NCBI GenBank assembly: GCA_902788095.1
Contig: CADAIT010000016.1
Span: 1-43,046 of the forward strand
Direction of reading: 5' to 3'
DNA: 43,046 nucleotides
From: an uncultured Bacteroidia bacterium
Lineage (GTDB): Bacteria; Bacteroidota; Bacteroidia; Bacteroidales; UBA932
The notes under the pieces are model-generated. The model ran no database searches and was not told the origin of the DNA. It worked only from the letters and a program-made list of their open reading frames with translations. The position numbers were made by a program, and so were the translations under genes. This document shows, piece after piece, positions 9,877 to 29,063 of the stretch; the stretch's first letter is position 1, and each line of letters begins with the position of its first letter.

Positions 9877-11009
9877 TTGGTAAGTGCCTTATACATATTT
9901 ACATACTGCTCCACGGCGGTTTCCAGCTCGCTTGCCAGGACCTGTTCGTCGGGCCGATGCGCCACGCGGATGGTGCCGGGGCCGCAGATAATTTTGTGGC
10001 CGAAGCCGGTGAGGTGCGGCGCGTCGCTGCCGAAGGCCACGGGACCGCTCAGGAAACCGGGCAGCGTGACATAACGCGCCGGCGCATCCCCGCCCCGCGC
10101 CGCCACGGTGAGGCCTCCGGCCGGGTTGTCCCCCATCGCCTGCATCCAGTCCTGCACGGCCTGGTCGCTCACGAAGGTGGTGCGGAAATACAGGCGGCAG
10201 GTGAGCTCCGGAGACAGGATGTTCTGCGGATTGTCGCTGTGCAGCAGGCCCACGTTCCAAGTGGTTGCACCCAGCTCCGGATCCTCCCCGAAGTCCTTCG
10301 CCTTCAGCTTGTTGTAGAATTCGTTGAACAAGTCCACCGCGCTCACGCCGTACTGCGGATAGCCCGAATGGAAGGCTTCCCCGCGGAAGCTGAGGTCATA
10401 GGACTTGGTGCCTTTGGAGGCGCTGACCATCTTGTTCTCCGTGGGCTCGCCCACAATGAGGAAAGGGGCCTCGAAATGCGTCTTGGAAAACGCTTTGGCT
10501 CCCCAGGAACCGGTTTCCTCCCCTGCCAGCAGCAGCAGTCCGAAGTCCGTGCAGGCCTCCGCTTCCAGCTGCTTGCAGGCCATATACATGGCAAACAGTT
10601 GCCCCTTGGCATCGCAGCTGCCCCTGCCGCTAATCCGGAGAGGATGCTCTCCCGAGGAACTTCGTTCGCTTCGCTCACTCCGGCCCCTCCCATTGTCTAC
10701 TTCGTCCCCTTCGGGAACTTGTTTACAACGGGCCCCTCCCCCTACCCATGTGCGGGGGGGCACATGTCCTCGGGAGAGTATCTCCTCCGGAAAGCCAGGG
10801 GCAATATAGGGCGGGACCGTGTCCATGTGCGTGCAAAAAACCACCTTGGGGATGCCCCACTTGAGGAAAAGGTTCAGCGTGCCGTCTCCCACTTCCATCG
10901 GCTCCACCACCGGGGCTTCCAGCTGCGTCAGAAGCCACTGAGCCACCTTCCGCTCCTTTCCGGAAGTGGAATCGATGCACAAGAGCTCTTTGAAAAAGTT
11001 CCAGTTCAT
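9873..11009 (-). CDS. M20 family metallo-deacylase, dapE candidate, with in-frame repeat insertion
   Basis: A 378-residue M20 peptidase-family hydrolase of the DapE/ArgE group. The metal-binding and catalytic landmarks are THMDTVPP, LLLAGEETGSWG, GEPTENK and a C-terminal RVAHRPDE. I chose the ATG at 11009 (MNWNFFKELLC); the longer frame reads through intergenic hairpin DNA. Between PPYIAPGF and GRGSCDAKGQ lies about 52 extra residues rich in Gly, Arg and Ser, encoded by a family B repeat at 10635-10790. The frame is kept. Overlap with dapB and the nearby dapD make N-succinyl- (or N-acetyl-) diaminopimelate the likely substrate; an arginine-pathway deacetylase is the alternative. Confidence 0.85.
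   Translation of the reverse strand: MNWNFFKELLCIDSTSGKERKVAQWLLTQLEAPVVEPMEVGDGTLNLFLKWGIPKVVFCTHMDTVPPYIAPGFPEEILSRGHVPPRTWVGGGARCKQVPEGDEVDNGRGRSERSERSSSGEHPLRISGRGSCDAKGQLFAMYMACKQLEAEACTDFGLLLLAGEETGSWGAKAFSKTHFEAPFLIVGEPTENKMVSASKGTKSYDLSFRGEAFHSGYPQYGVSAVDLFNEFYNKLKAKDFGEDPELGATTWNVGLLHSDNPQNILSPELTCRLYFRTTFVSDQAVQDWMQAMGDNPAGGLTVAARGGDAPARYVTLPGFLSGPVAFGSDAPHLTGFGHKIICGPGTIRVAHRPDEQVLASELETAVEQYVNMYKALTK
10635..10790. repeat. Family B in-frame insertion, copy 1 (in the M20 gene)
   Basis: Arms at 10635-10658 and 10767-10790 match as inverted repeats at 21 of 24 positions. The core (10659-10766) shares TTCGCTTCGCTC, CGGCCCCTCCCATT, a CCTTCGGG hairpin, GGGCCCCTCCCCCTACCCAT and a CATGTGC/GCACATG stem with the insertion in murB, and in looser form with that in dapF. 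The whole is 156 bp, 52 codons, with no stop in the host frame. The arms do not match those of the other copies. Confidence 0.85.
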
Positions 11010-11025
11010 TACTTTATCGGTTTCA

Positions 11026-11091
11026 GGGGCAAAATGCCCCATTTTCCCCCTTCGGAGGCCACTTAGGGGCACTATCGGCCCATTTTGCCCC
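11026..11091. repeat. Inverted repeat between asd and the M20 gene
   Basis: GGGGCAAAATG (11026-11036) and its exact complement CATTTTGCCCC (11081-11091) bracket a GC-rich segment in the gap between the asd stop and the M20 start. It could act as a terminator-like or mRNA-stabilising hairpin. No T-run is attached. Confidence 0.6.
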
Positions 11092-11097
11092 GCACGG

Positions 11098-12087
11098 TCA
11101 GGCAAGCCAGCCTTTGGCCAGGAGGACCTGGGCGATTTGCACGGCATTGGTGGCCGCGCCTTTGCGTATGTTGTCGCTCACAACCCAGAGGTTCATGCCG
11201 TTTTCCACCGAAGGGTCCCGGCGGATGCGGCCCACGAAAACCTCGTCCTTGCCCCAGGCGTTGACGGGCATGGGGTAAACGTTGTTTGCGGGATCGTCCT
11301 GAATGACTACGCCGGGCATATCGGCCATGAGCTGGCGGGCCTCAGAAAGCTCGAACGGCTTGTTGAACTCCAGGTTGACGCTTTCCGAGTGACCGCCTTC
11401 CACCGGCACGCGAACGGTGGTGGCGCTGACGGCGATGCTGCTGTCCCTGAGGATTTTACGCGTTTCGTTCACCATCTTCATTTCCTCCTTGGTATAGCCG
11501 TCCGGCAGGAAGGAGTCAATGTGCGGCAGAATGTTCATGTCGATGCGGTGCGGGAATTTGCTCCCGCTGCCGCCGGCGCGCTCCGCTTCCAGCTGCTCGA
11601 CTCCCCGCTGGCCGGCGCCGGTGACGCTCTGATAGGTGCTCACAACGATGCGTTTGATGCCATAGGCTTTGTGCAGGGGCGCCAACGGCAGCACCATCTG
11701 GATGGTGGAGCAGTTGGGGTTGGCGATGATGTGGTCTTCCCGGGTGAGGACATCGGCGTTGATTTCCGGCACCACCAGCGGGACGGACGGATCCATGCGC
11801 CAGCAGGAGGAGTTGTCCACCACGTAGCAGCCGATTTTCGCGAATTGCGGCGCAAGTTCGGCCGAGGCTGCCCCGCCGGCGCTGAAAATCGCCAGGACAG
11901 GTTTTTTGGCGATGGCATCGGCCGCGCTCATCACCGTCCATTCCTTGCCGCGAAATACAACTTTTTTTCCCCACGAACGCGAAGAAGCAACCGGTAATAA
12001 TTCCGTTATGGGGAAATTTCTTTCCTCCAATACCTCCAACATCTTGGAGCCTACCAAGCCTGTGGCGCCGACTACGGCTACTATCAT
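11098..12087 (-). CDS. asd: Aspartate-semialdehyde dehydrogenase
   Basis: Converts aspartyl-4-phosphate to aspartate semialdehyde, the branch point to DAP/lysine and homoserine. The 329-residue product has the NADP-binding start MIVAVVGATGLVGSKML, the active-site Cys in ANPNCSTIQM and the C-terminal segment GGHSESVNLEF with the catalytic His region. The start at 12087 is chosen because the longer frame adds 17 residues of leader with no family similarity. A -7 element (12151-12158) lies about 63 nt upstream. It is followed after 88 nt by the M20-dapB-thrA unit. Confidence 0.96.
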   Translation of the reverse strand: MIVAVVGATGLVGSKMLEVLEERNFPITELLPVASSRSWGKKVVFRGKEWTVMSAADAIAKKPVLAIFSAGGAASAELAPQFAKIGCYVVDNSSCWRMDPSVPLVVPEINADVLTREDHIIANPNCSTIQMVLPLAPLHKAYGIKRIVVSTYQSVTGAGQRGVEQLEAERAGGSGSKFPHRIDMNILPHIDSFLPDGYTKEEMKMVNETRKILRDSSIAVSATTVRVPVEGGHSESVNLEFNKPFELSEARQLMADMPGVVIQDDPANNVYPMPVNAWGKDEVFVGRIRRDPSVENGMNLWVVSDNIRKGAATNAVQIAQVLLAKGWLA

Positions 12088-12150
12088 GTTATGATAAATT
12101 AAATGTTTAACCTCCCGCCCCCTTAGGAAGGGACTCATCTTAATAACCTA

Positions 12151-12158
12151 CAAATATA
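12151..12158 (-). promoter_or_regulatory. Probable -7 element upstream of asd
   Basis: Minus-strand TATATTTG matches the TAnnTTTG consensus and lies 63 nt before the asd start. No TTG at the usual distance was found, so the call rests on the -7 element alone. Confidence 0.45.
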
Positions 12159-12198
12159 CGTATCTTTTTGGAAAAATGATAGATTCCTGCGGTGTAAA

Positions 12199-12310
12199 GG
12201 GCTGGTCCCGCTGCCGCCACGTTTTGGCCCACAAATGCGCCGCTGGCGGGCCAAAAGGTCCGCCAGTGCTACGTTTTTCCGTGAAAGTGCGCCCGCAGTG
12301 GGTCCAGGCC
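12199..12310. repeat. Multi-arm hairpin region downstream of dapD
   Basis: Three nested or alternative stems are visible: outer arms 12199-12213 and 12296-12310 (12 of 15 pairs); TTTTGGCCC (12222-12230) with GGGCCAAAA (12248-12256); and CTGGCGG (12243-12249) with CCGCCAG (12260-12266). The region begins 10 nt after the dapD stop and fills most of the gap to asd. It is probably a terminator-like or 3'-end stabilising structure. I see no coding content here. Confidence 0.6.
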
Positions 12311-12319
12311 AGGCGCGTC

Positions 12320-13096
12320 CTAGCGCAGGAGGTCCTCCAGATGGACGCTGCCGGCGGTTTTTTCGTCCCGGTATTTCACAATTACGGGGCAGTAGAGGTG
12401 CACGCCGCTTTCCAGGGGCTTTCCGTCGCGGATGACAGGCTTGGAGCCGCTCACTACCACGGCGTTGCGAGGGACGACGATGCGGCCGTCGGCATTCCGC
12501 TTGATGAATTCGCCGGTGGTGGTATCGAAAATGGCGGTGGAAGAAGTGATGATGACGCCGGAAGCAATCACGGCGCCTTCCTGGACGATGGTGCCCTCAT
12601 AGATGCCGCAGTTGCCGCCTACGAAGGCGCCGTCCTCGATGATGGTGGGCAGGGCGCCCGCCGGTTCCAGCACGCCGCCAATCTGTGTCGATGCGGAAAT
12701 ATGGATGTTTCGGCCCACCTGGGCGCAGGAGCCGATGGTGACGTGGCTGTCCACCATGGTTCCCTCTCCGACGTACGCGCCCACGTTCACGTACGCAGGC
12801 GGCATGACGATGCTGCCGGGAGCCAGGTACGCGCCGCGCCGGATGCTGGTGCCGCCGGGAACGATGCGCACACCGTCATCGGCACGGAATTGCCGCACCG
12901 GGAAGGTGTTTTTGTCGAAGAAGGAAAACTGCCCCTCGGACATGTCCGTGATGGCTCCCAGCTTGAAGCCGGCCAGAATGACCTCCTTTACGTGGCGGTT
13001 CACCACCCACTCGCCGTCCACTTTTTGGGCGACGCGCAACGCTCCCTTTTCCAGGGCGGAGATGACTTCGTTGAACTCTTGCAGGGTAATTTCCAT
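12320..13096 (-). CDS. dapD: Tetrahydrodipicolinate N-succinyltransferase
   Basis: Acylates tetrahydrodipicolinate in the succinylase branch of DAP synthesis. The 258-residue protein has a helical N-domain and a left-handed beta-helix of hexapeptide repeats (GGTSIRRGAYLAPGSIVMPPAYVNVGAYV... in form), with the family segment VDSHVTIGSCAQVGRN and GALPTIIED. It overlaps the dapA stop by one base (TAATG), so dapA-dapD are coupled. Its presence, rather than a DapL-only route, predicts that an acyl-DAP aminotransferase and deacylase exist; candidates for both are in the window. Confidence 0.95.
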   Translation of the reverse strand: MEITLQEFNEVISALEKGALRVAQKVDGEWVVNRHVKEVILAGFKLGAITDMSEGQFSFFDKNTFPVRQFRADDGVRIVPGGTSIRRGAYLAPGSIVMPPAYVNVGAYVGEGTMVDSHVTIGSCAQVGRNIHISASTQIGGVLEPAGALPTIIEDGAFVGGNCGIYEGTIVQEGAVIASGVIITSSTAIFDTTTGEFIKRNADGRIVVPRNAVVVSGSKPVIRDGKPLESGVHLYCPVIVKYRDEKTAGSVHLEDLLR

Positions 13097-13962
13097 TAGA
13101 ACAGGTCTTTAAGGGTTTGTTTGAGCAGTTCCTCCGTGGCGGCGGTGGCGGGAACCAGCGGCAGGCGCAGGCTGTTTTCCATGAGTCCGAGCTGGGCCAT
13201 GGCCGCCTTGGCCGGGATGGGATTGGGCTCCACGAAGAGGGCCTTGAACAGGGGACTCAGGCGGGCATCCATCTTTTCCGCCTCCGCGAGCTTCCCTGCC
13301 TGCAGGGCGTGGACAAAATCCACCATGGCGCTGGGAAATACGTTGGAGGCTACGGAGATGACGCCGTCGGCCCCTTTTTGCATGAGGGGGAGGGTGTCTT
13401 CGTCGTTGCCGCTGAGCACCGAAAAGCCCTCAGGACGGCCTTGAAGGATGGTTTGAATCTGCTCCATCTTGCCGGAGGCTTCCTTGATGGCCACGATATT
13501 GGGGATGTCCCGCGCCAGCGCCAGGGTGGTTTCCGCCTCCAGGTTGGAGCCCGTGCGACCCGGCACATTATACAGGATGATGGGCTTTCGGGTACTTTCC
13601 GCCACAGCCTTGAAATAGGCGTACATGCCCCTCTGCGGCGGTTTGTTGTAGAACGGGACCACCACCAGGAAGGCATCGGCATCCTGCAGCAGGCGCAGAT
13701 TGGCCAGGGTGCCGGCAAGGCTGTTGGTCCCCACACCGGCGACCACGGGTTTTCCGGCGGCATGCCAGCGCGTCACCTCCAGCACCTGGAGTTTTTCCGA
13801 TTCTGTGAGCGTGGGCGTTTCCCCGGTAGTGCCCAGCGGGACCAGAAAGTCCACACCGGCCGTCACCTGCCAGTCCACCGTGGCAGCAAAAGCCTCATAA
13901 TCCACTTCGTCCCCCTTGAACGGGGTGAGCAGCGCTGTTCCGCAACCTTTAATCTCAGTCAT
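13096..13962 (-). CDS. dapA: 4-hydroxy-tetrahydrodipicolinate synthase
   Basis: Condenses pyruvate with aspartate semialdehyde, committing carbon to DAP and lysine. The 288-residue TIM-barrel protein carries PLGTTGETPTLTESE, the YNVPGRTG segment with the proton-relay Tyr, and the Schiff-base Lys in IVAIKEASG. A -7 element sits 23 nt upstream (13986-13993), and a family A repeat begins at 14018, directly behind the promoter region. It forms an operon with dapD. Confidence 0.96.
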   Translation of the reverse strand: MTEIKGCGTALLTPFKGDEVDYEAFAATVDWQVTAGVDFLVPLGTTGETPTLTESEKLQVLEVTRWHAAGKPVVAGVGTNSLAGTLANLRLLQDADAFLVVVPFYNKPPQRGMYAYFKAVAESTRKPIILYNVPGRTGSNLEAETTLALARDIPNIVAIKEASGKMEQIQTILQGRPEGFSVLSGNDEDTLPLMQKGADGVISVASNVFPSAMVDFVHALQAGKLAEAEKMDARLSPLFKALFVEPNPIPAKAAMAQLGLMENSLRLPLVPATAATEELLKQTLKDLF

Positions 13963-13985
13963 GTTCCCTTGTATTTAACGATTTA

Positions 13986-13993
13986 CAAATATA
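13986..13993 (-). promoter_or_regulatory. Probable -7 element of dapA-dapD
   Basis: Minus-strand TATATTTG fits TAnnTTTG, 23 nt before the dapA start. The expected -33 position falls next to the left end of the family A repeat (14018), so the repeat may form part of the promoter's upstream region. Confidence 0.5.
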
Positions 13994-14017
13994 CGGAATT
14001 ATTCCGGAATTTTGCAT

Positions 14018-14124
14018 GTGACAGCTAATTCGGTGATTCACAGTCAGTTATACAATAATCCTCGTTCCAAAACTGAACGAGGATTGTGTAGGATGTCACT
14101 GATAATAAGTTGGTTAGCTGTCAC
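14018..14124. repeat. Family A 107-bp palindromic element, copy 1
   Basis: Ends are GTGACAGCTAA (14018-14028) and the exact complement TTAGCTGTCAC (14114-14124). The core is AATCCTCGTTC (14057-14067), a 7-nt loop, and GAACGAGGATT (14075-14085). The two 50-bp halves are related inverted copies. The element lies between the 3' end of the beta-barrel gene and the dapA promoter. Length, ends and core match three other copies in the window. Confidence 0.9.
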
Positions 14125-14147
14125 CGCCGATGTGGTGCAGCGGGTGA

Positions 14148-14230
14148 AGCGCCACAAAAAGGGTCGAATTGATGGCGCTCAGCCCGATTTTTGCCCCAAG
14201 CGCCTGAAAACAGGCCTTTTCCGTGGCGCT
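14148..14230. terminator. Tandem hairpins downstream of the beta-barrel gene
   Basis: AGCGCCA (14148-14154) pairs with TGGCGCT (14173-14179), and AGCGCC (14199-14204) pairs with GGCGCT (14225-14230). Inside the second, GCCTG-AAAA-CAGGC forms a tight hairpin. They begin 12 nt past the stop of the operon's last gene, which suggests a transcription end or 3'-protection site. A hairpin with the same stem lies after the MBOAT gene (38279-38310). Confidence 0.55.
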
Positions 14231-14242
14231 CGGGCAGCGGAA

Positions 14243-19852: not shown

Positions 19853-19871
19853 GTGTCTAATGGTTCTGGTG

Positions 19872-19879
19872 CAAAGATA
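19872..19879 (-). promoter_or_regulatory. -7 element of the blaI operon
   Basis: Minus-strand TATCTTTG, 19 nt before the blaI start, fits TAnnTTTG. A -33 TTG is not evident; that zone is taken by the palindrome at 19896-19913. Confidence 0.6.
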
Positions 19880-19895
19880 CAACAGTTTTTCTTAT

Positions 19896-19913
19896 CTCCT
19901 AATTTTTTAGGAG
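19896..19913. promoter_or_regulatory. Candidate BlaI operator palindrome
   Basis: CTCCTAATTTTTTAGGAG is a perfect palindrome with 7-bp arms and a 4-bp AT centre. It lies 16 bp upstream of the blaI -7 element, where a bound repressor would block RNA polymerase. A further half-site TTTTAGGA occurs just beyond, near 19925-19933. It differs from the staphylococcal TACA/TGTA operator, so BlaI binding is inference from position and symmetry. Confidence 0.55.
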
Positions 19914-19980
19914 TTTTCCGTATAATTTTAGGAATCCTTACCGCCCTGTGCCGGAAAACCTGCCGGTCGGCAAGCACCGA

Positions 19981-20988: not shown

Positions 20989-21010
20989 GGTATAGGTTCA
21001 GTATGTTCGT

Positions 21011-21117
21011 GTGACACTTATCTTCTTTCGTATCAATTTGTTACAGTATAATCCTCGTTCCATTTTGCGACGAGGATTGTGTTGCAAGTCGCTCTATTTC
21101 AGGCGATTAACTGTCAC
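21011..21117. repeat. Family A 107-bp palindromic element, copy 2
   Basis: Ends GTGACACTTA (from 21011) and TTAACTGTCAC (21107-21117). The core is AATCCTCGTTC (21050-21060) with a one-base-changed partner ending CGACGAGGATT (to 21078). Length is again exactly 107 bp. Its right end overlaps the last eight codons of dapF, including the stop; its left end lies 23 bp from the PanE-like start. Confidence 0.88.
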
Positions 21118-22164
21118 TAATTCGGCGGGACCGGTGAGGTAAACATCGGTGAAACGGTCCTCCGCGGCGGACTGGAAATCTACTTGAAGCCAGTCGCCAC
21201 GGCGGCATTGGAGCCGATAGGAGACGGCCGCTCCGGAGCCGTCATGGCAGGTTCCGCCTTCCGCAGCGGGTGTACTTACCTCGCCACGGGGAATCGCCAC
21301 CCCGGCCTTGTACGCAGCCAGGGCGCAAGCGGTGAGGCCGGTGCCGCACGCAAGGGTCTCTCCCTCCACCCCTTTCTCGAAGGTGCGGACATGGAGGCCG
21401 TCGGCCCGGACTTCCACAAAATTCACGTTAGTGCCCTCCGGCTGGAAGGCCGCATCCCAGCGCAAGGGTTTGGCTTCCGTCTCCATGTCGATGCCGTCCA
21501 CCCCGGGCGTGAATTTCACGAAGTGCCGCGTGCCGGTATTCAGGAAATAGCCGTCTTTCATAGACGTAACGCCCTGCACATCAATCATTTTCAGCCGCAC
21601 GGTCCAGGTTCGGAGGGGAGTGACCTCTCCAAACCCATGGCCACCCTCGGCCGTGTAAGAGGGAGGGGCCCAAAGCCGTGCTTCAGCACGTTGCGAATGG
21701 GAGGGGTCGCGGAGCGACGGTTTGGAGAGGTCACTCCCCTCCGAAAGAATCTCGGCGGTATGTTCCCCGTCTGGGGCGAGGAAGTGGTAAGTGCGGCCAT
21801 CGGCGGGGTTGATACCCAGGTAGTTGGCGAAGGCCACGATGCAGCGGCCGCCGTTGCCGCACATCATGCCGCCGGAGCCGTCCGGATTGTAGAACTCCAT
21901 CACGAAGTCGTAAGGAGAAGCTTCGACTTCACCCTTCGGGCTTCGCTCAGCATGACAAGCCCGGACTGAGCCTTCCCCGGACTGGGCGGGCGTGGGGGCT
22001 GAAGTAAGAATCATGAGGCCGTCCGTGTGGTACTCACGGCACAGCGCGCCAATCCGGGCCGGCTCCCGGAAGGGTTCCATTCCGCCCCGACGCCCGTCCA
22101 GCACCACAAAATCGTTCCCCGCTCCGGAGAACGTAAAAAACCGTGACACGTAACTATCTATCAT
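21094..22164 (-). CDS. dapF: Diaminopimelate epimerase carrying two in-frame insertions
   Basis: Converts LL-DAP to meso-DAP. Both catalytic cysteines are present: SGGMMCGNGGRC (Cys73-type) and GETLACGTGLTACALA (Cys217-type); the N-terminus has FSGAGNDFVVLDGR. At 356 residues it is about 85 longer than usual. The excess is explained by a family C insertion (about 28 residues, around ACHAERSPKGEVEAS) and a family B insertion (about 46 residues, 21609-21745). I start at the ATG at 22164; this codon and the next few, and the last codons with the stop, lie inside family A repeats. The frame is intact and both active-site halves are kept. Confidence 0.93.
   Translation of the reverse strand: MIDSYVSRFFTFSGAGNDFVVLDGRRGGMEPFREPARIGALCREYHTDGLMILTSAPTPAQSGEGSVRACHAERSPKGEVEASPYDFVMEFYNPDGSGGMMCGNGGRCIVAFANYLGINPADGRTYHFLAPDGEHTAEILSEGSDLSKPSLRDPSHSQRAEARLWAPPSYTAEGGHGFGEVTPLRTWTVRLKMIDVQGVTSMKDGYFLNTGTRHFVKFTPGVDGIDMETEAKPLRWDAAFQPEGTNVNFVEVRADGLHVRTFEKGVEGETLACGTGLTACALAAYKAGVAIPRGEVSTPAAEGGTCHDGSGAAVSYRLQCRRGDWLQVDFQSAAEDRFTDVYLTGPAELVTVNRLK
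21609..21745. repeat. Family B in-frame insertion, copy 3 (in dapF, opposite orientation)
   Basis: Perfect 27-bp inverted arms at 21609-21635 and 21719-21745 bracket an 83-bp core. On the minus strand the core reads TCGCTCCG, then CCCCTCCCATT, a GTGCTGAAGCAC hairpin, GGGCCCCTCCCTCTTAC and GGGTGGCCATG, the same block order as the plus strand of the copies in murB and the M20 gene. It is therefore inserted the other way round relative to the host gene, and remains free of stops. Confidence 0.82.
21915..21957. repeat. Family C repeat in dapF
   Basis: The minus strand reads TGTCATGCTGAGCGAAGC, then CCGAAGGGTGAAGTCGAAGC, a variant of the TGTCATTCTGAGCGAAGCG type of dispersed repeat. It is translated in frame as part of a roughly 28-residue insertion between the LMILTSA strand and YDFVMEFYNPDGS of DapF. 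Confidence 0.7.
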
Positions 22165-22249
22165 ACAATCGTTTCCGTTACATTCCTCGTTCAAATTTTG
22201 AACGAGGATTATACAGTAATTCACTCCGTATCAGCCAGTTAGCTGCCAC
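22143..22249. repeat. Family A 107-bp palindromic element, copy 3
   Basis: Left end GTGACACGTAA (from 22143), right end TTAGCTGCCAC (22239-22249), core ATTCCTCGTTC (22182-22192) and GAACGAGGATT (22200-22210) with a 7-nt loop. The left end lies inside dapF: the dapF ATG at 22164 and its first seven codons are made of repeat sequence. Confidence 0.88.
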
Positions 22250-22290
22250 AACAACATAGTGGTTATACACAACCGTCACACTTCAACGTA

Positions 22291-22397
22291 GTGGCACTTA
22301 ACTCTCTGTATCTCAATTGTTTCCCACATAATCCTCGTTCAAAATTTGAACGAGGATTGTATTATAACTCGCTATGCGTCAGTCGCTTAGCGATCAC
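22291..22397. repeat. Family A 107-bp palindromic element, copy 4
   Basis: Left end GTGGCACTTAA (from 22291), right end TTAGCGATCAC (22387-22397), core AATCCTCGTTC (22330-22340) and GAACGAGGATT (22348-22358). It follows copy 3 after 41 bp. The right end supplies the stop codon (22394-22396) of the aminotransferase gene. Confidence 0.88.
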
Positions 22398-23542
22398 ACG
22401 GCTTGCCGCACCAGCTCCGCCAACAGCTTGATGCCGGGCTCCATCTTGGACTCGTCCACGAAGGAGAAGTTCAGGCGCATGGTGTTGCGGTGGCTGCCGT
22501 CCGTATAGAAGAAGGAGCCGGCCACATAAGCCACTCCCGCGGCCAGGGCCTGGTCGTACAGCGCCACGGTATCCACGGCCGACGGCAACGTAAGCCACAA
22601 AAACAAGCCTCCCTCCGGATAGGTCCAGGAGACGCCGGAAGGCATGTATTTTTCCAGCAGGGAAACCATCCGGTCGCGCCGGCGGCGGTACTCGGCGATG
22701 GTCTTCTGCAAATTGGTGTCCAGCAGGCCGGAAGCCAGGAACTCCGCCGCCAGGTATTGGTCCAGCACCGGCGGGCAAAGGTCCAGGCACTGTTTGCATA
22801 CGTAAATCTGCTCCAGCAGCGGCTCCGGGCCGATCATCCACCCCAGCCGGAACCCCGGCGCGAAAATCTTGGAGAAGGAGCCCAATTGCAGGGTACGCTC
22901 CGGCGCCAGCTCGCGGATGGTGGGCACGGCCTCCCCGGAGTACCGCAGCTCCCGGTACGGGCTGTCCTCCACAATGAGGCAGTCCAGCTCCCGGGCCAGG
23001 GTCACCAGCTCCTCCCGCTCCGCCAGGGTCAAGGTCTTCCCAGTGGGATTGTTGAAGTCCGGAATTACGTATATGAACTTAATCTTTGGGGCGATTCCCG
23101 CAGAGGCAGGCACTCCTTCGGAATCGATCGGCAGCACCTGTGCCCTGTAGGCCCTGAAACTTTGCAGGGCGCCCAGGTAAATGGGATTGGAGGCAAGGAC
23201 TACATCTCCGGGGTCCAGGAAAACGCGGGCGCAGACATCGATGCCCTGCTGGGACGATGTGGTAATCTGCACCTGCGAAACGGGCACGCCGTAACGCGAG
23301 GCTATCAGTTCCCGCAGCTCCGGGACGCCCTGCGTGGCGCCGTACTGCAGCGCCTTGGTGCCGTACTTCTCCAGCACCCGCTCCGTGAGGCCGGGGATAT
23401 CGGCCAGGGGAAACGTGCACGCCGCCGGATACCCGCCCGCGAAAGAGCAGATGGCGGAAAGGTCCACCTTGCGGAAGATTTCGCGCACGGGGGATCGCAG
23501 GAAGGACGGCACGTCGGCAGAGAAGTATTTGTTGTAATCCAT
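22394..23542 (-). CDS. PLP-dependent class-I aminotransferase, dapC candidate
   Basis: A 382-residue fold-type-I aminotransferase related to the LysN/2-aminoadipate and MocR-type group. Landmarks: LQYGATQGVPELRELIA, the PDFNNPTGKTL cofactor-binding Asn, the VEDSPYREL Asp/Tyr segment, the PLP Lys in LGSFSKIFAPGFRLGW, and the C-terminal carboxylate-binding Arg in TMRLNFSF. I start at the ATG at 23542; the longer frame is family C repeat. In a cluster with dapD, an M20 deacylase and dapF, the missing acyl-DAP aminotransferase step is the most economical role, but other amino acids are possible. Confidence 0.85.
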   Translation of the reverse strand: MDYNKYFSADVPSFLRSPVREIFRKVDLSAICSFAGGYPAACTFPLADIPGLTERVLEKYGTKALQYGATQGVPELRELIASRYGVPVSQVQITTSSQQGIDVCARVFLDPGDVVLASNPIYLGALQSFRAYRAQVLPIDSEGVPASAGIAPKIKFIYVIPDFNNPTGKTLTLAEREELVTLARELDCLIVEDSPYRELRYSGEAVPTIRELAPERTLQLGSFSKIFAPGFRLGWMIGPEPLLEQIYVCKQCLDLCPPVLDQYLAAEFLASGLLDTNLQKTIAEYRRRRDRMVSLLEKYMPSGVSWTYPEGGLFLWLTLPSAVDTVALYDQALAAGVAYVAGSFFYTDGSHRNTMRLNFSFVDESKMEPGIKLLAELVRQAV

Positions 23543-23590
23543 GAGATTTACTCGCTTCGCTCGAAATGACAAAAGGGTGCTCGGAATGAC
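23543..23590. repeat. Family C repeat between murA and the aminotransferase gene
   Basis: The minus strand reads GTCATTTCGAGCGAAGCGAG followed by TAAATCTC, preceded by a second partial unit GTCATTCCGAGCA. It fills the 56-bp gap between the murA stop and the aminotransferase ATG. Confidence 0.7.
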
Positions 23591-23598
23591 GGGAACGG

Positions 23599-24906
23599 CT
23601 AAGCCCGGGTGATATGCGCACCGAGGGCATTCAGGCGGCCTTCGATGTCCTCGTAACCGCGGTCAATCTGCTCAATATTGTCGATGGTGGACGTGCCCTT
23701 GGCGCTCATGGCGGCCAGCAGCATGGCGATACCCGCACGGATATCCGGCGACACCAGCCGCGCGGCCTTGAGCGTAATCCGGTGGTCATGGCCTATCACC
23801 ACCGCCCGGTGCGGGTCGCAGAGGATAATCTGTGCGCCCATGTCAATGAGGCGGTCCACAAAGAACAGGCGGCTCTCGAACATCTTCTGGTGAATGAGCA
23901 CGCTTCCCTTGCACTGGGTGGCCACCACCAGCATCACGGACAGGAGGTCCGGGGTGAGGCCCGGCCAGGGGGCGTCGGCAAGGGTCATGATGGAGCCGTC
24001 CAGGAAAGAGTCTATCTCGTAGCTTTCCTGCGCGGGAACGTAAATATCGTCTCCCTGCTGCTCCAGCTTGATGCCCAGGCGGCGGAACGCGTCCGGAATA
24101 ATGCCCAGGTCATAGTACGACACGTCTTTGATGGTGAGGCTGCTCTGGCAGATGGCGGCCATGCCGATAAACGAGCCCACCTCAATCATATCCGGCAAAA
24201 TTTTGTGCAGGGTGCCGTGCAGCGTCTCCACGCCATGGATGCGCAGCAGGTTGGAGCCCACGCCGTCGATATACGCACCCATGCGGTTGAGCATCTTGCA
24301 AAGCTGCTGCAGGTACGGCTCGCAGGCGGCGTTGTAGATGGTGGTGGTGCCTTTGGCCAGCACGGCGGCCATCACGATGTTGGCCGTACCGGTCACGGAG
24401 GCTTCGTCCAGCAACATGTATCGGCCTACCAGGCGGCCTTCCTGCGTGAGATGGAATGCACGGCGCGAGGCGTCATAGTCCATCCGGGCACCCAGCTTGA
24501 CCATGCCGTCCAGGTGGGTGTCCACCCTGCGCCGGCCGATTTTGTCGCCGCCGGGCTTGGCGAACCAGGCATGGCCGAAACGGCTCAGCAGCGGCCCCAC
24601 GACCATCACCGAACCGCGGAGCTTGGCACATTTTTGCACGAATTCCTCCGTCTCGATGTAGGTGGTGTCCACGGCATCGGCCTGAAACGTGTACATGCCC
24701 TTGGCCAGGCGCGTCACTTTAACGCCCATCTGCTGCAGCAGGTCGATAAGATTCTTCACATCCAGGATTTCCGGAATGTTGGAGATGGTTACCGGCTCGC
24801 TGGTGAGCAACACGGCGCTGATCACTTCCAGGGCCTCGTTCTTGGCGCCCTGCGGGGTAATGCTGCCGGAGAGCTTGTGCCCTCCCTCGATGATAAATTT
24901 TGCCAT
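23599..24906 (-). CDS. murA: UDP-N-acetylglucosamine 1-carboxyvinyltransferase, Asp-type active site
   Basis: First committed step of peptidoglycan synthesis: transfers enolpyruvate from PEP to UDP-GlcNAc. The 435-residue product starts MAKFIIEGGHKLSGSITPQGAKNEAL, with the substrate Lys-Asn pair, and ends with the usual DRGYEDIEGRLNALGA. In the active-site loop the Cys of the E. coli enzyme (PGGCxIG) is Asp here (KPGGDKIGRRRVDTHL). That substitution is known to leave MurA active but insensitive to fosfomycin. I choose the start at 24906 over a longer frame; the -7 element lies only 6 nt upstream. Confidence 0.96.
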   Translation of the reverse strand: MAKFIIEGGHKLSGSITPQGAKNEALEVISAVLLTSEPVTISNIPEILDVKNLIDLLQQMGVKVTRLAKGMYTFQADAVDTTYIETEEFVQKCAKLRGSVMVVGPLLSRFGHAWFAKPGGDKIGRRRVDTHLDGMVKLGARMDYDASRRAFHLTQEGRLVGRYMLLDEASVTGTANIVMAAVLAKGTTTIYNAACEPYLQQLCKMLNRMGAYIDGVGSNLLRIHGVETLHGTLHKILPDMIEVGSFIGMAAICQSSLTIKDVSYYDLGIIPDAFRRLGIKLEQQGDDIYVPAQESYEIDSFLDGSIMTLADAPWPGLTPDLLSVMLVVATQCKGSVLIHQKMFESRLFFVDRLIDMGAQIILCDPHRAVVIGHDHRITLKAARLVSPDIRAGIAMLLAAMSAKGTSTIDNIEQIDRGYEDIEGRLNALGAHITRA

Positions 24907-24912
24907 AGTGTA

Positions 24913-24920
24913 CAAATATA
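24913..24920 (-). promoter_or_regulatory. -7 element of murA
   Basis: Minus-strand TATATTTG fits TAnnTTTG and ends 6 nt before the murA ATG, so the transcript is likely leaderless or nearly so. No TTG was found at the standard distance. Confidence 0.5.
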
Positions 24921-24980
24921 CTCTTTTTTGTCGGATTCCCGAAATTAACGGGCGCGCTATGAATACTGAATTTTTTTCCT

Positions 24981-24988
24981 TACCTTTG
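24981..24988 (+). promoter_or_regulatory. -7 element of the DUF4492-cydAB operon
   Basis: Plus-strand TACCTTTG fits TAnnTTTG, 21 nt before the ATG of the DUF4492 gene. A poly-T stretch lies directly upstream and no -33 TTG is evident. Confidence 0.5.
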
Positions 24989-25009
24989 AAACGATTAACC
25001 ACGGCCAAG

Positions 25010-25258
25010 ATGAAATCCGCAAAAGAACTCATGCTGAGCATCTGGGAATTCTACCGGGACGGCTTCAGGAACATGACCTGGGGACGGCCGCTCATTTGGC
25101 TCATTCTCCTTAAAATCTTCATCCTCTTCGCCATTCTCCGTCTGTTCTTCTTCAAACCGGCCATGCGCGGTCTCACAGACGAGCAAAAAAGCGAGCTGGT
25201 GGGTGCACATCTTACAGAAAAAACCTTATCACATACAGATACACTAACCTTTAACTGA
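25010..25258 (+). CDS. DUF4492 small membrane protein, cytochrome bd associated
   Basis: An 82-residue protein with one clear membrane helix (PLIWLILLKIFILFAILRLFFF, about residues 27-48) after a short amphipathic start (MKSAKELMLSIWEFYRDGFRNMTWG). This matches DUF4492, found beside cydA in Bacteroidota, and it may play the part of the small CydX-type subunit of proteobacterial cytochrome bd; that role is inference. I use the ATG at 25010; the longer upstream frame runs through the promoter. The stop lies 7 nt before cydA. Confidence 0.85.
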   Translation: MKSAKELMLSIWEFYRDGFRNMTWGRPLIWLILLKIFILFAILRLFFFKPAMRGLTDEQKSELVGAHLTEKTLSHTDTLTFN

Positions 25259-25265
25259 TTTTACT

Positions 25266-26759
25266 ATGGATGTAGTCATTTGGTCTCGCATCCAATTCGC
25301 CATGACCGCAGCCTATCACTGGCTGTTCGTCCCCCTTACCCTGGGCCTGGCGCTGGTAATGGCCGTGATGGAGACGCTCTACGTGGTCAAGAAGGACCCG
25401 TTTTGGAAGAAGACGGCACAGTTCTGGATAAAACTGTTCGCCATCAATTTTGCCGTGGGCATTGCCACCGGTATCATTCTGGAGTTCGAATTCGGCACCA
25501 ACTGGAGCAACTACTCCTGGTTCGTGGGCGATATGTTCGGCGCTCCGCTGGCCATCGAGGGCATCCTGGCGTTCTTCATGGAAGCCACCTTCTTTGCCGT
25601 CATGTTCTTTGGCTGGGAAAAGGTCTCGCCCAAATTCCACCTGGCGTCCACCTGGCTCACCGGCATTGGCGCCACCATTTCGGCCTATTGGATCCTGGTG
25701 GCCAACGGATGGATGCAAAACCCTGTGGGCACCACGTTCAATCCCGACACGGTACGCAGCGAGATGGCATCGGCAGCGGCCTTCTGGGAAGTGGTCACCA
25801 ACCCCGTGGCCGTGAGCAAGTTCTTCCATTCCGTCACCAGCGGCTGGGTGACCGGCGGAGTCTTCGTCGTCGGTGTCAGCGCCTGGTATCTCCTGAAAGG
25901 ACGGGAGAAGCACTTTGCGCTGAAGAGCATCCTCGTGGGTGGTCTCGTGGGCCTGGCAGGCAGCGCCGCCGTCATGCTTTCCGGCGATGCTTCCGGCATC
26001 CACGCCGCTGAATTCCAACCCATGAAGCTGGCCGCTGCAGAAGGGCTGGAAGACGGCGGAAAGGGCGCAGCCTTCACCATCGTCCCGGGCATCAAGGTGC
26101 CGCACATGCTGTCTCTGCTCGCCACCCATGACTGGAACGGCTATGTCCCGGGCATCAACGACATCCTCCGCGGTTACACCGACAATGACGGAAACGTGAT
26201 TCCTTCCGTGGCCGATAAGATGGCTATGGGCCGCACCGCCCTGGACGCCCTGGCCACCTACAGGGCCAACCGGGACACCAATCCCGAGGTGGCGGCCGCT
26301 GCCAAAGCCGTACTGAACGCCAATGTACAATATATGGGCTACGGCCATCTGGAGAAGCCCGAGGATGTAATTCCGCCCGTGGGTGTGGTGTTCTGGGCCT
26401 TCCGCTTCATGGTGGGTCTGGGCATGCTGCTGGCCCTGGTGCTGCTGCTCACCGTCTGGTTTGCCTGGAAGGGCAAGCTGGAAGGGTACCGCTGGCTGCT
26501 GTGGACGGCTATCTGGTGCATTCCGCTGGTGTACATTTGCGGCCAGTCCGGCTGGATTGTGGCCGAAGTGGGCCGCCAGCCCTGGACCATCCAGGGCCTG
26601 CTGCCGGTGAACGTGGCCATCTCCAGCCTAAGCGCAGGAGCCGTAAAGACCACCTTCTTCGTGTTCCTGGCCGTGTTCGCCCTCTTCCTCGTGATTGAAA
26701 TCCGGATCATGTTGCGTGCCATCCGGAAAGGACCTGAAGTTGAACCTGGTAATGCTTAG
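25266..26759 (+). CDS. cydA: Cytochrome bd ubiquinol oxidase subunit I
   Basis: Haem-bearing subunit of the high-affinity quinol oxidase that reduces oxygen to water in the inner membrane. The 497-residue protein has nine or so membrane helices, the haem b595 axial His in AAYHWLFVPLTLGL (His20), the conserved EFGTNWSNYSWFVGDMFGAPLAIEG segment in helix 3 region and the GRQPW motif near the C-terminus. It is translated in a tight run with the DUF4492 gene and cydB (3-nt gap). A bd oxidase fits an anaerobe or microaerobe that scavenges oxygen. Confidence 0.97.
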   Translation: MDVVIWSRIQFAMTAAYHWLFVPLTLGLALVMAVMETLYVVKKDPFWKKTAQFWIKLFAINFAVGIATGIILEFEFGTNWSNYSWFVGDMFGAPLAIEGILAFFMEATFFAVMFFGWEKVSPKFHLASTWLTGIGATISAYWILVANGWMQNPVGTTFNPDTVRSEMASAAAFWEVVTNPVAVSKFFHSVTSGWVTGGVFVVGVSAWYLLKGREKHFALKSILVGGLVGLAGSAAVMLSGDASGIHAAEFQPMKLAAAEGLEDGGKGAAFTIVPGIKVPHMLSLLATHDWNGYVPGINDILRGYTDNDGNVIPSVADKMAMGRTALDALATYRANRDTNPEVAAAAKAVLNANVQYMGYGHLEKPEDVIPPVGVVFWAFRFMVGLGMLLALVLLLTVWFAWKGKLEGYRWLLWTAIWCIPLVYICGQSGWIVAEVGRQPWTIQGLLPVNVAISSLSAGAVKTTFFVFLAVFALFLVIEIRIMLRAIRKGPEVEPGNA

Positions 26760-26762
26760 ACT

Positions 26763-27902
26763 ATGAGTTACGAATTCTTACAGAACTACTGGTGGTGCCT
26801 GGTAGCCCTGCTGGCAGGGTTGCTGGTGGCCCTGATGTTTGTACAAGGCGCCAACCTGCACCTAGGAAACCGCGCGCTGGACGAAACCCGTAAACGGATG
26901 ATCCTGAATTCCACCGGGCGCAAGTGGGAACTTACCTTCACCACACTGGTCACCTTCGGCGGAGCGTTCTTCGCCTCCTTTCCGTTATTCTACAGCACCA
27001 GTTTCGGCGGTGCCTACTGGGTGTGGGTGCTGCTCCTGCTCACCTTCGTATTCCAGGCAGTGGCCTACGAGTTTCAGAACAAAAAGGGCAACCTGTTGGG
27101 CGTGAAGGGCTTCCGTATCGCCCTCATGATCAACGGCATCCTGGCCCCCTTCCTGGTGGGAACGGCCGTGGGAACCTTCTTCACCGGTTCGGATTTCACC
27201 GTGAACAAACTGGCCATCGCCAACCCGTCGGCCCCGGTCATCAGTACTTGGGGGAATGGCTGGCATGGCCTGGAGGCTCTGGGACAGTATCACGCCGTCC
27301 TTCTGGGCTGCACCCTGGTCTTTCTGGCAGCCATCCTGGGAGCCCTGTATGTCCTCAACAATGTAGATGATAAGAAAATTGAGGCCGAGATGCGCCGCTG
27401 CATCAAAATGGCAGCCGTCCCCTTCCTGCTGCTCTTCATAAGCTGGACGGCCATCCTGCTTTGCCGCCAAGGCTTCGCCGTTGATGCCCGGGGCGTGGTT
27501 TCCATGGAGCCTTACAAATACCTGCACAACCTGCTGGAGATGCCGGTGGTGCTGGTGATGCTGCTCGCAGGCGTCGTTCTTGTGCTCTGTAGTCTGTACC
27601 TGGGCGCCTTCAGCCAGTCCCGCAAGGGCATCTGGATGGCCACGCCCGGCACCGTGCTGGTGGTGATGAGCGTGTTCTTCCTGGCCGGTTTCAACGGAAC
27701 GGCCTACTATCCGTCCTGCACAGACCTCCAGAGTTCCCTCACCCTGCAGAACAGTTCTTCCAGCCGGTTCACCCTCACCGTGATGTTCTGGGTATCCCTG
27801 CTCATCCCGTTTGTGCTGGCGTATATTGTCTATGCCTGGAGGGCGATGGACCGCAAATCCATCACGGCCGATGAAATAGAAAGCACCGACCACAAATATT
27901 GA
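26763..27902 (+). CDS. cydB: Cytochrome bd ubiquinol oxidase subunit II
   Basis: Second core subunit of cytochrome bd, 379 residues with about eight to nine membrane helices and no expected haem ligands. The N-terminus (FLQNYWWCLVALLAGLLVALMFVQGANL) and TLVTFGGAFFASFPLFYSTSFGG agree with the family. It ends 6 nt before the convergent murB stop codon, leaving almost no room for a terminator between the two operons. Confidence 0.96.
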   Translation: MSYEFLQNYWWCLVALLAGLLVALMFVQGANLHLGNRALDETRKRMILNSTGRKWELTFTTLVTFGGAFFASFPLFYSTSFGGAYWVWVLLLLTFVFQAVAYEFQNKKGNLLGVKGFRIALMINGILAPFLVGTAVGTFFTGSDFTVNKLAIANPSAPVISTWGNGWHGLEALGQYHAVLLGCTLVFLAAILGALYVLNNVDDKKIEAEMRRCIKMAAVPFLLLFISWTAILLCRQGFAVDARGVVSMEPYKYLHNLLEMPVVLVMLLAGVVLVLCSLYLGAFSQSRKGIWMATPGTVLVVMSVFFLAGFNGTAYYPSCTDLQSSLTLQNSSSSRFTLTVMFWVSLLIPFVLAYIVYAWRAMDRKSITADEIESTDHKY

Positions 27903-27908
27903 CGGCGG

Positions 27909-29063
27909 TCACACGTGCTCCACCTCGGGGTGCAGCGTGATACCGTATTTCTGCGCAATGGCCTGGATGACTTGGTTCTCCAGGCCAATAATGTCTTGGG
28001 GAGAAGCTGTGCCTGAGGCGTTTACTATCACCAGCGGCTGGTTCTGGTACACTTGTGCGCCGCCGTTCCGGGCGCCTTTGAACCCGCACTGCTCAATCAT
28101 CCATGCAGCGGGGACTTTGATGCCGTCCCCTACCTCGTAGTGGGGCACCTGGTAGTCCGGGCCGTTGTCCTCGCGGGCTGTGGCCACGATACGCTCAAAG
28201 TGCTCGCGGGAGACGACGGGATTGCAGAAAAAGCTGCCCGCACTGCCCAGTTCTTCCACCGCCGGCAGTTTGGCCTGCCGGATGCCGATGATGGCGTCGC
28301 GGATGTCGCCAGGCGCGAGCGATAAAGTGCCGGTTCCGGGGAACTCCACTTCGCTTCGCTCCGTTCCGGCCCCTCCCATTCCCTTCGGGAACAGGCCCCT
28401 CCCCCTACCCATGTCCGGGGGTGGACATGTCCCCGGAACCGGCACTTTCCCACTCTCTTCCAGGGCTTCACGGACACCGCCGTAGTCCAGGCGGGGCTGC
28501 GGGGTGCGACTAAGGCGATAGGTAACGGCGGTGATGACGAACCGGCCTTTCCACTCGGTCTTGAACTTGGAGGTACGGTAGCCGTAGGCGCAGTCGGCCG
28601 GGTCGATGTCCACGAAACAGGCCTCCTGGCGGTCCCAGGCACGGATTCCGCTGATGATGTCCTTGGCCTCCACACCATATGCGCCAATGTTCTGCACGGC
28701 CGATGCCCCCACTTCGCCGGGAATGAGCGAGAGGTTCTCGGGGCCCCACAGGCCTTCCGACGCAGCCCAGGCGCAGAAGTCGTCGAACACCACCCCGGCG
28801 CCGCAGGTGACCGATTCTTCGCTTCGAGATTCTTCGCTCCGCTCAGAATGACAGATGGCCATGTGAAGCACCGTTCCGGGAAAATCTTTGGTAAAGAGGA
28901 GGTTGGAACCGCCGCCCATCACCAGCACGGGCTGTGGCAGGGCGTCCCAGTCCAGGACCGGAAGGTCTTCTTCGGCCGTCACTTCCACGAACAGCGCACA
29001 CTTCACCTTCATCCGGAAGGTGTTCCGGCCGGAAAGGTCGCAGTTGTCATACCTCGTTACCAT
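27909..29063 (-). CDS. murB: UDP-N-acetylenolpyruvoylglucosamine reductase with two in-frame repeat insertions
   Basis: Reduces the MurA product to UDP-MurNAc with NADPH and FAD. The 384-residue protein is about 45-50 longer than expected. Family landmarks: VMGGGSNLLF, LSLIPGEVGASAVQNIGAYG (FAD binding), YGYRTSKFK (type I loop), SAGSFFCNP with the catalytic Ser, and the terminal HPEVEHV Glu. The extra residues are a family C peptide (CHSERSEESRSEES, near residue 70) and a family B peptide (about 40 residues, 28324-28448). Active-site motifs are intact. It follows aspS by 22 nt. Confidence 0.94.
   Translation of the reverse strand: MVTRYDNCDLSGRNTFRMKVKCALFVEVTAEEDLPVLDWDALPQPVLVMGGGSNLLFTKDFPGTVLHMAICHSERSEESRSEESVTCGAGVVFDDFCAWAASEGLWGPENLSLIPGEVGASAVQNIGAYGVEAKDIISGIRAWDRQEACFVDIDPADCAYGYRTSKFKTEWKGRFVITAVTYRLSRTPQPRLDYGGVREALEESGKVPVPGTCPPPDMGRGRGLFPKGMGGAGTERSEVEFPGTGTLSLAPGDIRDAIIGIRQAKLPAVEELGSAGSFFCNPVVSREHFERIVATAREDNGPDYQVPHYEVGDGIKVPAAWMIEQCGFKGARNGGAQVYQNQPLVIVNASGTASPQDIIGLENQVIQAIAQKYGITLHPEVEHV
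28324..28448. repeat. Family B in-frame insertion, copy 2 (in murB)
   Basis: Perfect 19-bp inverted arms (28324-28342 and 28430-28448) bracket an 87-bp core with TTCGCTTCGCTCCG, CGGCCCCTCCCATT, CCCTTCGGGAA, GGCCCCTCCCCCTACCCAT and a CATGTCC/GGACATG stem. The core is close to that in the M20 gene but is read in a different frame, giving a PPPDMGRGRG-type peptide. The arms are unrelated to those of the other two copies. Confidence 0.87.
28813..28853. repeat. Family C repeat in murB
   Basis: The minus strand reads TGTCATTCTGAGCGGAGCG, then AAGAATCTCGAAGCGAAGAAT: one full unit plus a partial second. It is translated in frame as a Ser-Glu-Arg-Ser-Glu-Glu peptide inserted after the LHMAI strand of MurB. 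Confidence 0.8.

Follow-up and report, generated by a model that had tools for sequence, protein, structure and literature searches.

Three genes in the window examined here, a 43,046-nucleotide stretch from an uncultured Bacteroidia bacterium of the order Bacteroidales (contig CADAIT010000016.1), carry in-frame copies of a palindromic repeat element. The genes encode an M20-family peptidase/deacylase, diaminopimelate epimerase (dapF) and MurB. The element joins a conserved core, in which comparison of copies reveals a predicted pseudoknot, to a closing stem whose sequence is specific to each copy, and insertion probably leaves an inverted copy of the flanking target. On balance, the best explanation is probably that of a small non-autonomous element that would move as a folded single strand, enter by fold-back copying and be kept where it lands in frame in a loop. 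The original prediction, made from the window alone, had read the inserts as a mobile in-frame palindrome; that much stands, and the copy-specific stem, the pseudoknot and the probable inverted target copy had been overlooked. Below, G-numbers denote genomes (G000 is the host genome), L-numbers loci or alleles, and s-numbers insertion sites.

Three In-Frame Inserts in the Window

All three host genes lie on the minus strand, their open reading frames (ORFs) run uninterrupted across the inserts, as had been claimed, and the proteins match their families. The M20 gene (9873–11147) was recognized from its ORF, its translation and matches to Pfam PF01546 and PF07687; no NCBIfam model shown for its product reached the cut-off. 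The hairpin formed by its insert was placed by arm search at 10634–10791 and consists of a 25-nt outer arm (10634–10658; L001 1505–1529) with three mismatches to the second arm (10767–10791; L001 1638–1662) and a core at 10659–10766, located by similarity, folding and arm search. The core is in the sense orientation on the minus strand (motif at 10730–10742, minus), and its loop CCCCC pairs with GGGGG. In dapF (21094–22224, minus strand; translation and TIGR00652 above cut-off), arm search places the hairpin at 21609–21745. Its 27-nt first arm (21609–21635; L020 1505–1531) is the perfect complement of the second (21719–21745), and the core (21636–21718, by similarity and arm search) lies on the plus strand, antisense to the gene, with the motif at 21659–21671 (plus) and loop CCCTC pairing with GAGGG. 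In the allele alignment, the outer part of the second arm, TTCGGAGGGG on the coding strand, is similar to the insert-free G003 allele, TTCGGAAGGG. In murB (27909–29063, minus strand; translation, with NF000755 and TIGR00179 above cut-off), the hairpin found by arm search spans 28324–28448, with perfect 19-nt arms (28324–28342, L003 1489–1507; 28430–28448, L003 1595–1613) around a core at 28343–28429, sense on the minus strand (similarity, folding and arm search). The positions first proposed for the three inserts were right to within a base or two.

For each of the three genes there are relatives without the insert. Measured against such alleles, the insert adds 144 nt (48 amino acids) to M20 (versus G171), 120 nt (40 amino acids) to MurB (versus G005) and 117 nt (39 amino acids) to DapF (versus G003), lengths obtained by arithmetic on allele lengths and the unaligned ends in allele comparisons. 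The earlier estimate had been about 40–52 residues. The three cores had also been called homologous. Those of M20 and murB belong to one subtype (BLAST E 1e-13); the dapF core represents a second, which the M20-core query did not match in the host genome at E ≤ 10, and the kinship of the two subtypes is based on their common plan, the motif GRGGGAGGGGCC and a joint alignment. As predicted, the core is read in two frames in one orientation, on the sense strand of M20 and murB, and in one frame in the other, on the antisense strand of dapF.

The inserts are not chance hairpins, given at least 18 copies genome-wide and coding-strand folding z-scores of −3.5 (M20), −7.4 (dapF) and −5.3 (murB), with none of 200 shuffles folding as well. 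Misassembly as their source was judged unlikely because separately assembled relatives share them: the same dapF insert is found in G005 and G379, and the same M20 insert in G379 and G327 (the G005 allele, L117, has most of the core deleted). Modelling had been suggested as a way to see whether the inserts fall in surface loops. In the DapF model (24-row alignment; mean predicted local distance difference test score, pLDDT, 80.9; 235 of 376 residues at 90 or above), residues 167–198 have pLDDT below 50 and form a hairpin turn between strands 153–163 and 205–212; residues 1–24 and 319–329 are low as well. In this predicted model, the DapF insert is a disordered loop extension. Residues C122 and C293, which we take to be the catalytic cysteines, are invariant in the alignment. 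The MurB model (mean pLDDT 47, 6-row alignment) was not used.

A Conserved Core With a Predicted Pseudoknot

From 5′ to 3′, a copy comprises an arm, a helix (P1) closing a six-base loop, the downstream partner of the pseudoknot helix (PK), a GGGAGGGGCCC strip, hairpin P3, a second GGGAGGGG, hairpin P4 and the other arm. The core measures about 60–200 nt and the closing stem about 13–36 bp in most copies. In PK, five bases of the loop pair downstream and so cross the P1 helix, which itself occurs with many pair types (for example, GGCC/GGCC, TGCC/GGCA, AGCC/GGCT, GTCC/GGAC and GTGC/GCAC). PK was counted in instances with the GGGAGGG strip and three inner P1 pairs, PK pairs themselves not being required. 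All five pairs form in 52 of 52 instances from loci found by similarity, with seven pair types; this set is the fair test of PK because the scan pattern fixes part of the loop in the other. Among the matches listed, the loci found by pattern have all five pairs in 97 of 98 instances.

In 57 aligned copies, which had been selected for stem pairing, the named pairs are formed in 93% of cells. Cells changed on both sides number 247 versus 71 in shuffles, with none of 500 shuffles as high (158 in the stem, 63 in P1, 10 in PK and 16 in P3 and P4 together), and covariation is 0.385 versus at most 0.091 when the partners are slid. As judged from these comparisons, the core holds two crossing, covarying helices, that is, a pseudoknot, and with this covariation the mobile copies appear to have been selected for structure. 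Some copies (L025, L030, L002, L334 and L376) have a longer core with an extra GC-rich module, which seems to be gained or lost in place, since the relative at the L025 site (L252/L406) has a short core. A search of the window against Rfam gave no match at threshold and two far below gathering scores, one of them mir-642 (32 bits of 90) over the dapF hairpin.

A Stem Specific to Each Copy

A flanking inverted repeat scoring at least 12 was found in 118 of 144 core instances (median 25 nt). After partners had been exchanged between copies, 2 of the 144 reached that score, and one of the two, an outlier at 27, probably reflects a near-identical copy; the 144 are distinct sequences with room to search, orthologues included. 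All 118 stem-bearing instances come from Bacteroidales loci. Across these 118, chosen for pairing, arm complementarity stays at 0.86 or higher for 20 positions and reaches background by about 30, and the information per arm column is at most 0.58 bit, with a weak GGGGTAT...CTCCGGAAACC tendency. Some cores are more than 90% alike although their arms are unrelated. By these counts, each arm pairs with its own partner, and stem sequences are particular to individual copies.

Copies in the Host Genome and Spread Among Genomes

The genome search with the cores that had been proposed as a check (BLAST with two cores, combined with arm search) returned at least 18 copies with arms in the host genome. 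Eleven of the 18 lie inside genes of named families: M20, MurB, DapF, TruB, YgiQ, MtaB, RibF, dihydropteroate synthase, TilS, TrmB and a rhamnosyltransferase-like gene (the L026 site, scanned as L009), whose family match is below cut-off. Two more (L004 and L036) are in ORFs without a family match; L036 is counted for its arm score of 12, its similarity E being only 0.96. The remaining five were read as lying between genes or at the ends of genes. A decayed copy in an ABC protein (L135), found by orthology, stands outside the 18. Enzymes of tRNA modification (TruA, TruB, TrmB, MtaB and TilS) seem common among the genes hit.

Beyond the host, the dapF-type query matched 18 of 41 genomes at E ≤ 0.001 (its own included), namely 18 of 25 of the host genus, which is probably GTDB Cryptobacteroides and has more than 400 genomes in the collection, and none of 16 others of the order. 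The motif GRGGGAGGGGCCC, counted as motif alone with stems not checked, occurs in 28 of the 119 genomes sampled from the family and in 11 of 25 genera, at up to 40 per genome; a reversed control motif gives 0–1 per strand, as compared with up to 40 for GRGGGAGGGGCCC in one genome. A pattern scan of named genomes returned at least 120 stretches. Among the matches listed, 72 of 96 measured Bacteroidales rows from metagenome-assembled genomes (MAGs) have a stem score of at least 14; judging by their names, these MAGs come mostly from ruminants and other plant-eating animals, and one is a Candidatus Coprenecus. The stem reached this score in none of 29 non-Bacteroidales rows among those listed (maximum 13), and in viral_contigs, where eight stretches were found, none of the seven measurable rows reached it either (maximum 9). 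The non-Bacteroidales matches listed, mostly from Caulobacter and Sphingomonas, share GAGGGAGGGGCCC and a hairpin and were set aside as a different repeat. By eye, L142, L154, L163, L188, L222 and other non-Bacteroidales loci have the order GAGGGAGGGGCCC, hairpin, GGGAGGG, with the stem nested, not crossed. On the distribution of these matches, the element, carried by gut bacteria, is widespread in one large Bacteroidales family and has been inserted there recurrently.

Reading Frame and Translation

The likeness first drawn to Rickettsia palindromic elements (RPEs), which enter proteins in frame, is borne out by allele comparisons at 13 gene sites, chosen for a reference inside an ORF. All distinct alleles in the collection with at most 500 nt between the flanks were compared; an allele counts as open if any of its three frames is open, and as core-bearing if it has the motif and passes a length rule. 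Relative to the reference, 89 of 92 non-reference alleles differ by a multiple of three and 90 of 92 are open; for the core-bearing ones, both counts are 46 of 48. With the 13 references included, the totals become 102 and 103 of 105, and for core-bearing alleles 58 of 60 on each count. The alleles are often inherited and so are not independent trials, and insert lengths vary widely within sites. The misses among core-bearing alleles are YgiQ L352 (length and closed frame), MtaB L242 (length) and TrmB L292 (closed frame); the ABC allele L396, which misses on length, is not core-bearing. The host proteins belong to unrelated families, so that in-frame insertion into unrelated genes, the mark of RPEs, is found here too. 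Because the alleles keep a multiple of three and an open frame, the inserts are most likely translated, without removal.

Turnover at Shared Loops

The same loop can be occupied differently in close relatives. At TruA, different cores and arms are found in L105, L234, L240, L334 and L358; L131, L338, L339 and L317 are insert-free. More than one kind of allele is likewise present at most other sites. G041 and G042 were compared through 30 loci drawn from 52 motif matches. Their flanks are 81–94% identical at the compared sites; of seven two-sided site pairs, four hold different elements (TruB, YggS, dihydropteroate synthase and RibF) and three the same one. Since close species differ at the same site, copies appear to come and go. 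A core can also be reversed between relatives with its arms unchanged, as at YgiQ (L024/L101), s026 (L026/L099), M20 (L001/L427) and dihydropteroate synthase (L039/L431). A fixed polarity, with the native arm always 3′ of the core, fitted the first cases and was dropped in view of these reversals.

A second, TCATTCTGAGCGAAGCGAAGAATC-like repeat family seems to add residues to murB (peptide HSERSEESRSEES) and dapF (CHAERSPKGEVEASP), and in relatives it occupies the same loops as the element studied here (YggS L336, MurB L340/L341 and MtaB L132/L363).

Empty Sites and a Probable Inverted Copy of the Target

At four sites, an insert-free allele can be set against an occupied one. The empty TruA allele of the host genome (L131) reads GTGCTGAATTATACGGAGGAGGGT|AATTATTGG, also written TATACGGAGGAGGGT|AATTATTGG. 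The occupied G327 allele (L334; insert 189 nt) has the same 24 bases, followed by the element, ACCCTTCTCCGT, GGGT and AATTATTGG, and ACCCTTCTCCGT is a reverse copy of ACGGAGGAGGGT with one mismatch. The GGGT is a possible 4-nt direct repeat; by eye, no common direct repeat is present at s025 or s026. In dihydropteroate synthase, the empty G327 allele (L430) reads GGAGATGGCAGGACATTGCCCTTC and then TATCTCC. One arm of the G055 allele (L432) is present in it over its outer 24 nt, with two mismatches, and the other side has only TATCTCC. L432 consists of arm, core and a reverse copy of the arm ending in CATCTCC, so the switch back to the target would fall within GGAGAT/ATCTCC. At s025, the empty allele of G171 (L404) is GGTAAACCTAC and the occupied one of G327 (L407) is GGTAGGTTTGGG ... 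CCCAAACCTAC, a copy of about 7 nt. At s026, the insert-free alleles of G327 and G055 (L401 and L402) read AGAACC and the occupied ones of G005 and G379 have ends GGTTC and GAACC, a copy of 5 nt. DapF resembles this pattern when compared with G003, at 76% identity. Because the empty alleles hold one outer arm (5–24 nt) and not its full complement, insertion seems to copy the flanking target in reverse, and an inverted target copy at insertion is probable.

Proposed Fold-Back Insertion and Its Alternatives

In fold-back insertion, proposed here as the simplest route, the inner stem would travel with the core and the outermost 5–24 bp would be made on arrival, one arm being the target and the other its reverse copy; few empty sites bear on this division. 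A 3′ end at the target might be extended through the element, whose ends would pair, so that the growing end would turn back and copy some bases of its own strand in reverse. The end may then return to the target template, at times where a few bases are identical, such as GGAGAT in dihydropteroate synthase or GTA at s025. The folded strand would probably be read by a protein, for which an HUH/RAYT transposase (RAYT, repetitive extragenic palindrome [REP]-associated tyrosine transposase) is a weak candidate. Selection would keep only in-frame landings in tolerant loops, which may be why housekeeping enzymes carry loop extensions (39–48 residues in the window).

Several observations weigh against this reading. 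Only four sites, plus DapF at low identity, display the inverted target copy. The GGAGGGT in TruA resembles the weak arm consensus, an alternative source for it, and L430, whose arm has five and seven mismatches in 24 to the occupied G000 and G379 alleles, may be what a deletion left behind. At s025, a further empty allele (L405, G387) is a poorer fit; RibF L330 is ambiguous; and murB, MtaB, s021, s027 and s108 are uninformative. YggS (L104/L137) was dropped as an empty site because it is ambiguous given G143 (L336), which is closer to G005 and lacks the arm. Some coreless alleles, at YgiQ (L298 and L309) and dihydropteroate synthase (L386), are short palindromes, and the core is reversible relative to its flanks, so a fixed polarity gives no check. 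Stems are also imperfect: in 26 of the 144 core instances the score stays under 12, the mismatched M20 arms of the host illustrate how pairing decays, and the changed columns of orthologous arms comprise 21 that are compensated and 26 that are uncompensated (19 pairwise comparisons, 495 columns; the pairs overlap, the alleles were hand-picked and sites with unequal arm lengths were omitted). With uncompensated changes in excess, arms look perfect at birth and then decay, some of them co-changing, and the idea that selection holds the arms paired at each locus is weakened. Finally, the genomes that carry the element are drafts, most of them MAGs.

A RAYT-type HUH (Y1) transposase moving the element as single-stranded DNA, a mechanism that has been put forward for REP/REPIN elements, would supply the enzyme for fold-back insertion and is not opposed to it; the suggestion is tentative and its probability rather low. 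In a small sample of 14 genomes chosen by hand, 11 have Y1_Tnp matches, with two to four in each of nine element-rich genomes (8 over the curated cut-off); of five element-poor genomes, two have matches. One G000 protein matches NF047646 REP_Tyr_transpos over a 167-residue stretch (E 4e-12, below cut-off), and a conserved folded single strand would suit an HUH substrate. Conversely, the motif GGGAGGGGCC is present on neither strand in any of 20 Y1 loci (about 3–5 kb each; of 33 matches listed), which tells against fold-back insertion as well, and the dapF-type query matched nothing in G006, a genome with six Y1 matches. The link between Y1 and the element is thus weak. Three Y1/HUH-type ORFs of about 300 codons were noted in the host genome (L442–L444), one with a clear tyrosine motif by eye and none beside a core.

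It is unlikely that the element is an ordinary miniature inverted-repeat transposable element (MITE) or degenerate insertion-sequence relic, mobilized by a transposase, with arms that drifted apart while selection or copy correction kept them paired. The inner ~10 bp of the arms do have a weak shared end (pyrimidine-rich, then GAAACC) with many both-sided changes, both arm changes between L267 and L268 are compensated, and the GGGT at TruA L334 could be a direct repeat. However, cores more than 90% alike with unrelated arms, an outer arm already in the target at empty sites, and the excess of uncompensated over compensated arm changes (26 vs 21) all speak against it.

That the arms were there first, the element entering pre-existing palindromes, is quite improbable. 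Palindromes without a core are indeed known, one of 31 nt in the dihydropteroate synthase gene of G225 (L386) and others at YgiQ (L298 and L309), but they can be core deletions of the kind seen in the M20 allele of G005 (L117). Moreover, most of the second arm is missing from TruA L131, dihydropteroate synthase L430, s025 L404 and s026 L401/L402, and perfect inverted repeats of 20–30 bp are not to be expected beforehand at so many coding sites. A retro-element, copied from RNA to DNA by a reverse transcriptase, has a lower probability still: the core resembles a selected structured RNA, and matches to PF00078 were found in 6 of the 14 chosen genomes, but five of the nine element-rich draft genomes, G000 among them, gave none. 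Least credible is removal or skipping of the insert at the RNA or ribosome level (as an intervening sequence or by bypassing), a question the original prediction had left open: the coding-strand hairpins are very stable, and stems of 20–30 bp are plausible RNase III substrates, but such removal would not require the frame that 46 of 48 core-bearing alleles keep in length and in openness, and the frame-independence of RNA-excised or bypassed inserts was not seen at the 13 gene sites.

Relation to Known Elements

In-frame palindromes as such are already known; new here are the copy-specific stem, the pseudoknotted core and the probable inverted target copy. No description of this element was found in the titles and abstracts of the literature searched, which covers few subscription journals. 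To our knowledge, no known element leaves an inverted target copy as a rule. It is possible, though doubtful, that fold-back insertion of a pseudoknotted single-strand core, with each insertion making part of its own stem from the target, with inverted rather than direct target duplication and with repeated lengthening of loops in essential enzymes across a family, makes this a new kind of element.

RPEs are described as palindromes of ~150 bp in frame in unrelated genes of Rickettsia and Wolbachia (PMC3733652; PMC10969869), with RPE-1 located in truB of R. conorii (PMC3733652), and the literature on protein palindromes of this sort goes back to 2002 (Ogata et al., cited in PMC3733652). The element shares this way of life and is set apart from the RPE descriptions by its copy-specific outer stem, its covarying pseudoknot and its hosts in a Bacteroidales family. 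REPs are reported in truA and truB of Stenotrophomonas (PMC3733652), and a RAYT subclass of Bacteroidetes, 2.6, is listed with atypical flanking structures (PMC6006769). Like REPs and REPINs, the element is a short mobile hairpin, sometimes intragenic, in hosts that carry Y1 transposases. Unlike them, its core and stem are several times longer, its stems are not common to copies, and its motif does not occur in the 20 Y1 loci. No conserved column lies beyond ~24 nt from the core, although a GTAG or CGTC tag, as at the foot of the 20–40 bp REP palindrome, would escape if its distance varied.

The ends of a MITE are common to family members, which the arms here are not, apart from the weak shared inner end. 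Bacterial MITEs, at 70–300 bp with terminal inverted repeats (PMC3733652) and described as sometimes forming in-frame fusions (PMC10969869), resemble the element in size range, in the inverted repeats and in in-frame occurrence. A structured invasive repeat with a scattered distribution also recalls the repetitive hairpin elements (RHEs) of sponge mitochondria (PMC2800124). Double-hairpin elements of mitochondria are comparable. Sponge RHEs have conserved stems and varying loops, the opposite of the varying stem and conserved core found here. Small inverted triplications, replication errors reported from yeast and cancer, leave inverted copies behind as well (PMC13334657), but these fold-back errors are rearrangements and not a repeat family.

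How palindromic repeats within proteins move is unsettled. For this element, the insertion reaction can be read from the sequence because, across many related genomes, a given loop may carry the element, carry a different one or be empty. The covarying pseudoknot offers a concrete substrate for finding the mobilizing protein, and the loops of MurB, TruA, TruB, YgiQ and others amount to a natural insertion-scanning experiment on housekeeping enzymes.

Other Repeats in the Window

A 108-nt repeat with its own palindrome (CCTCGTTC...GAACGAGG) occurs in four copies (14018–14125, 21011–21118, 22143–22250 and 22291–22398), and a similar palindrome adjoins copy L036. A tandem 12-base repeat lies at 34559–34714, with nine overlapping copies among the matches listed.

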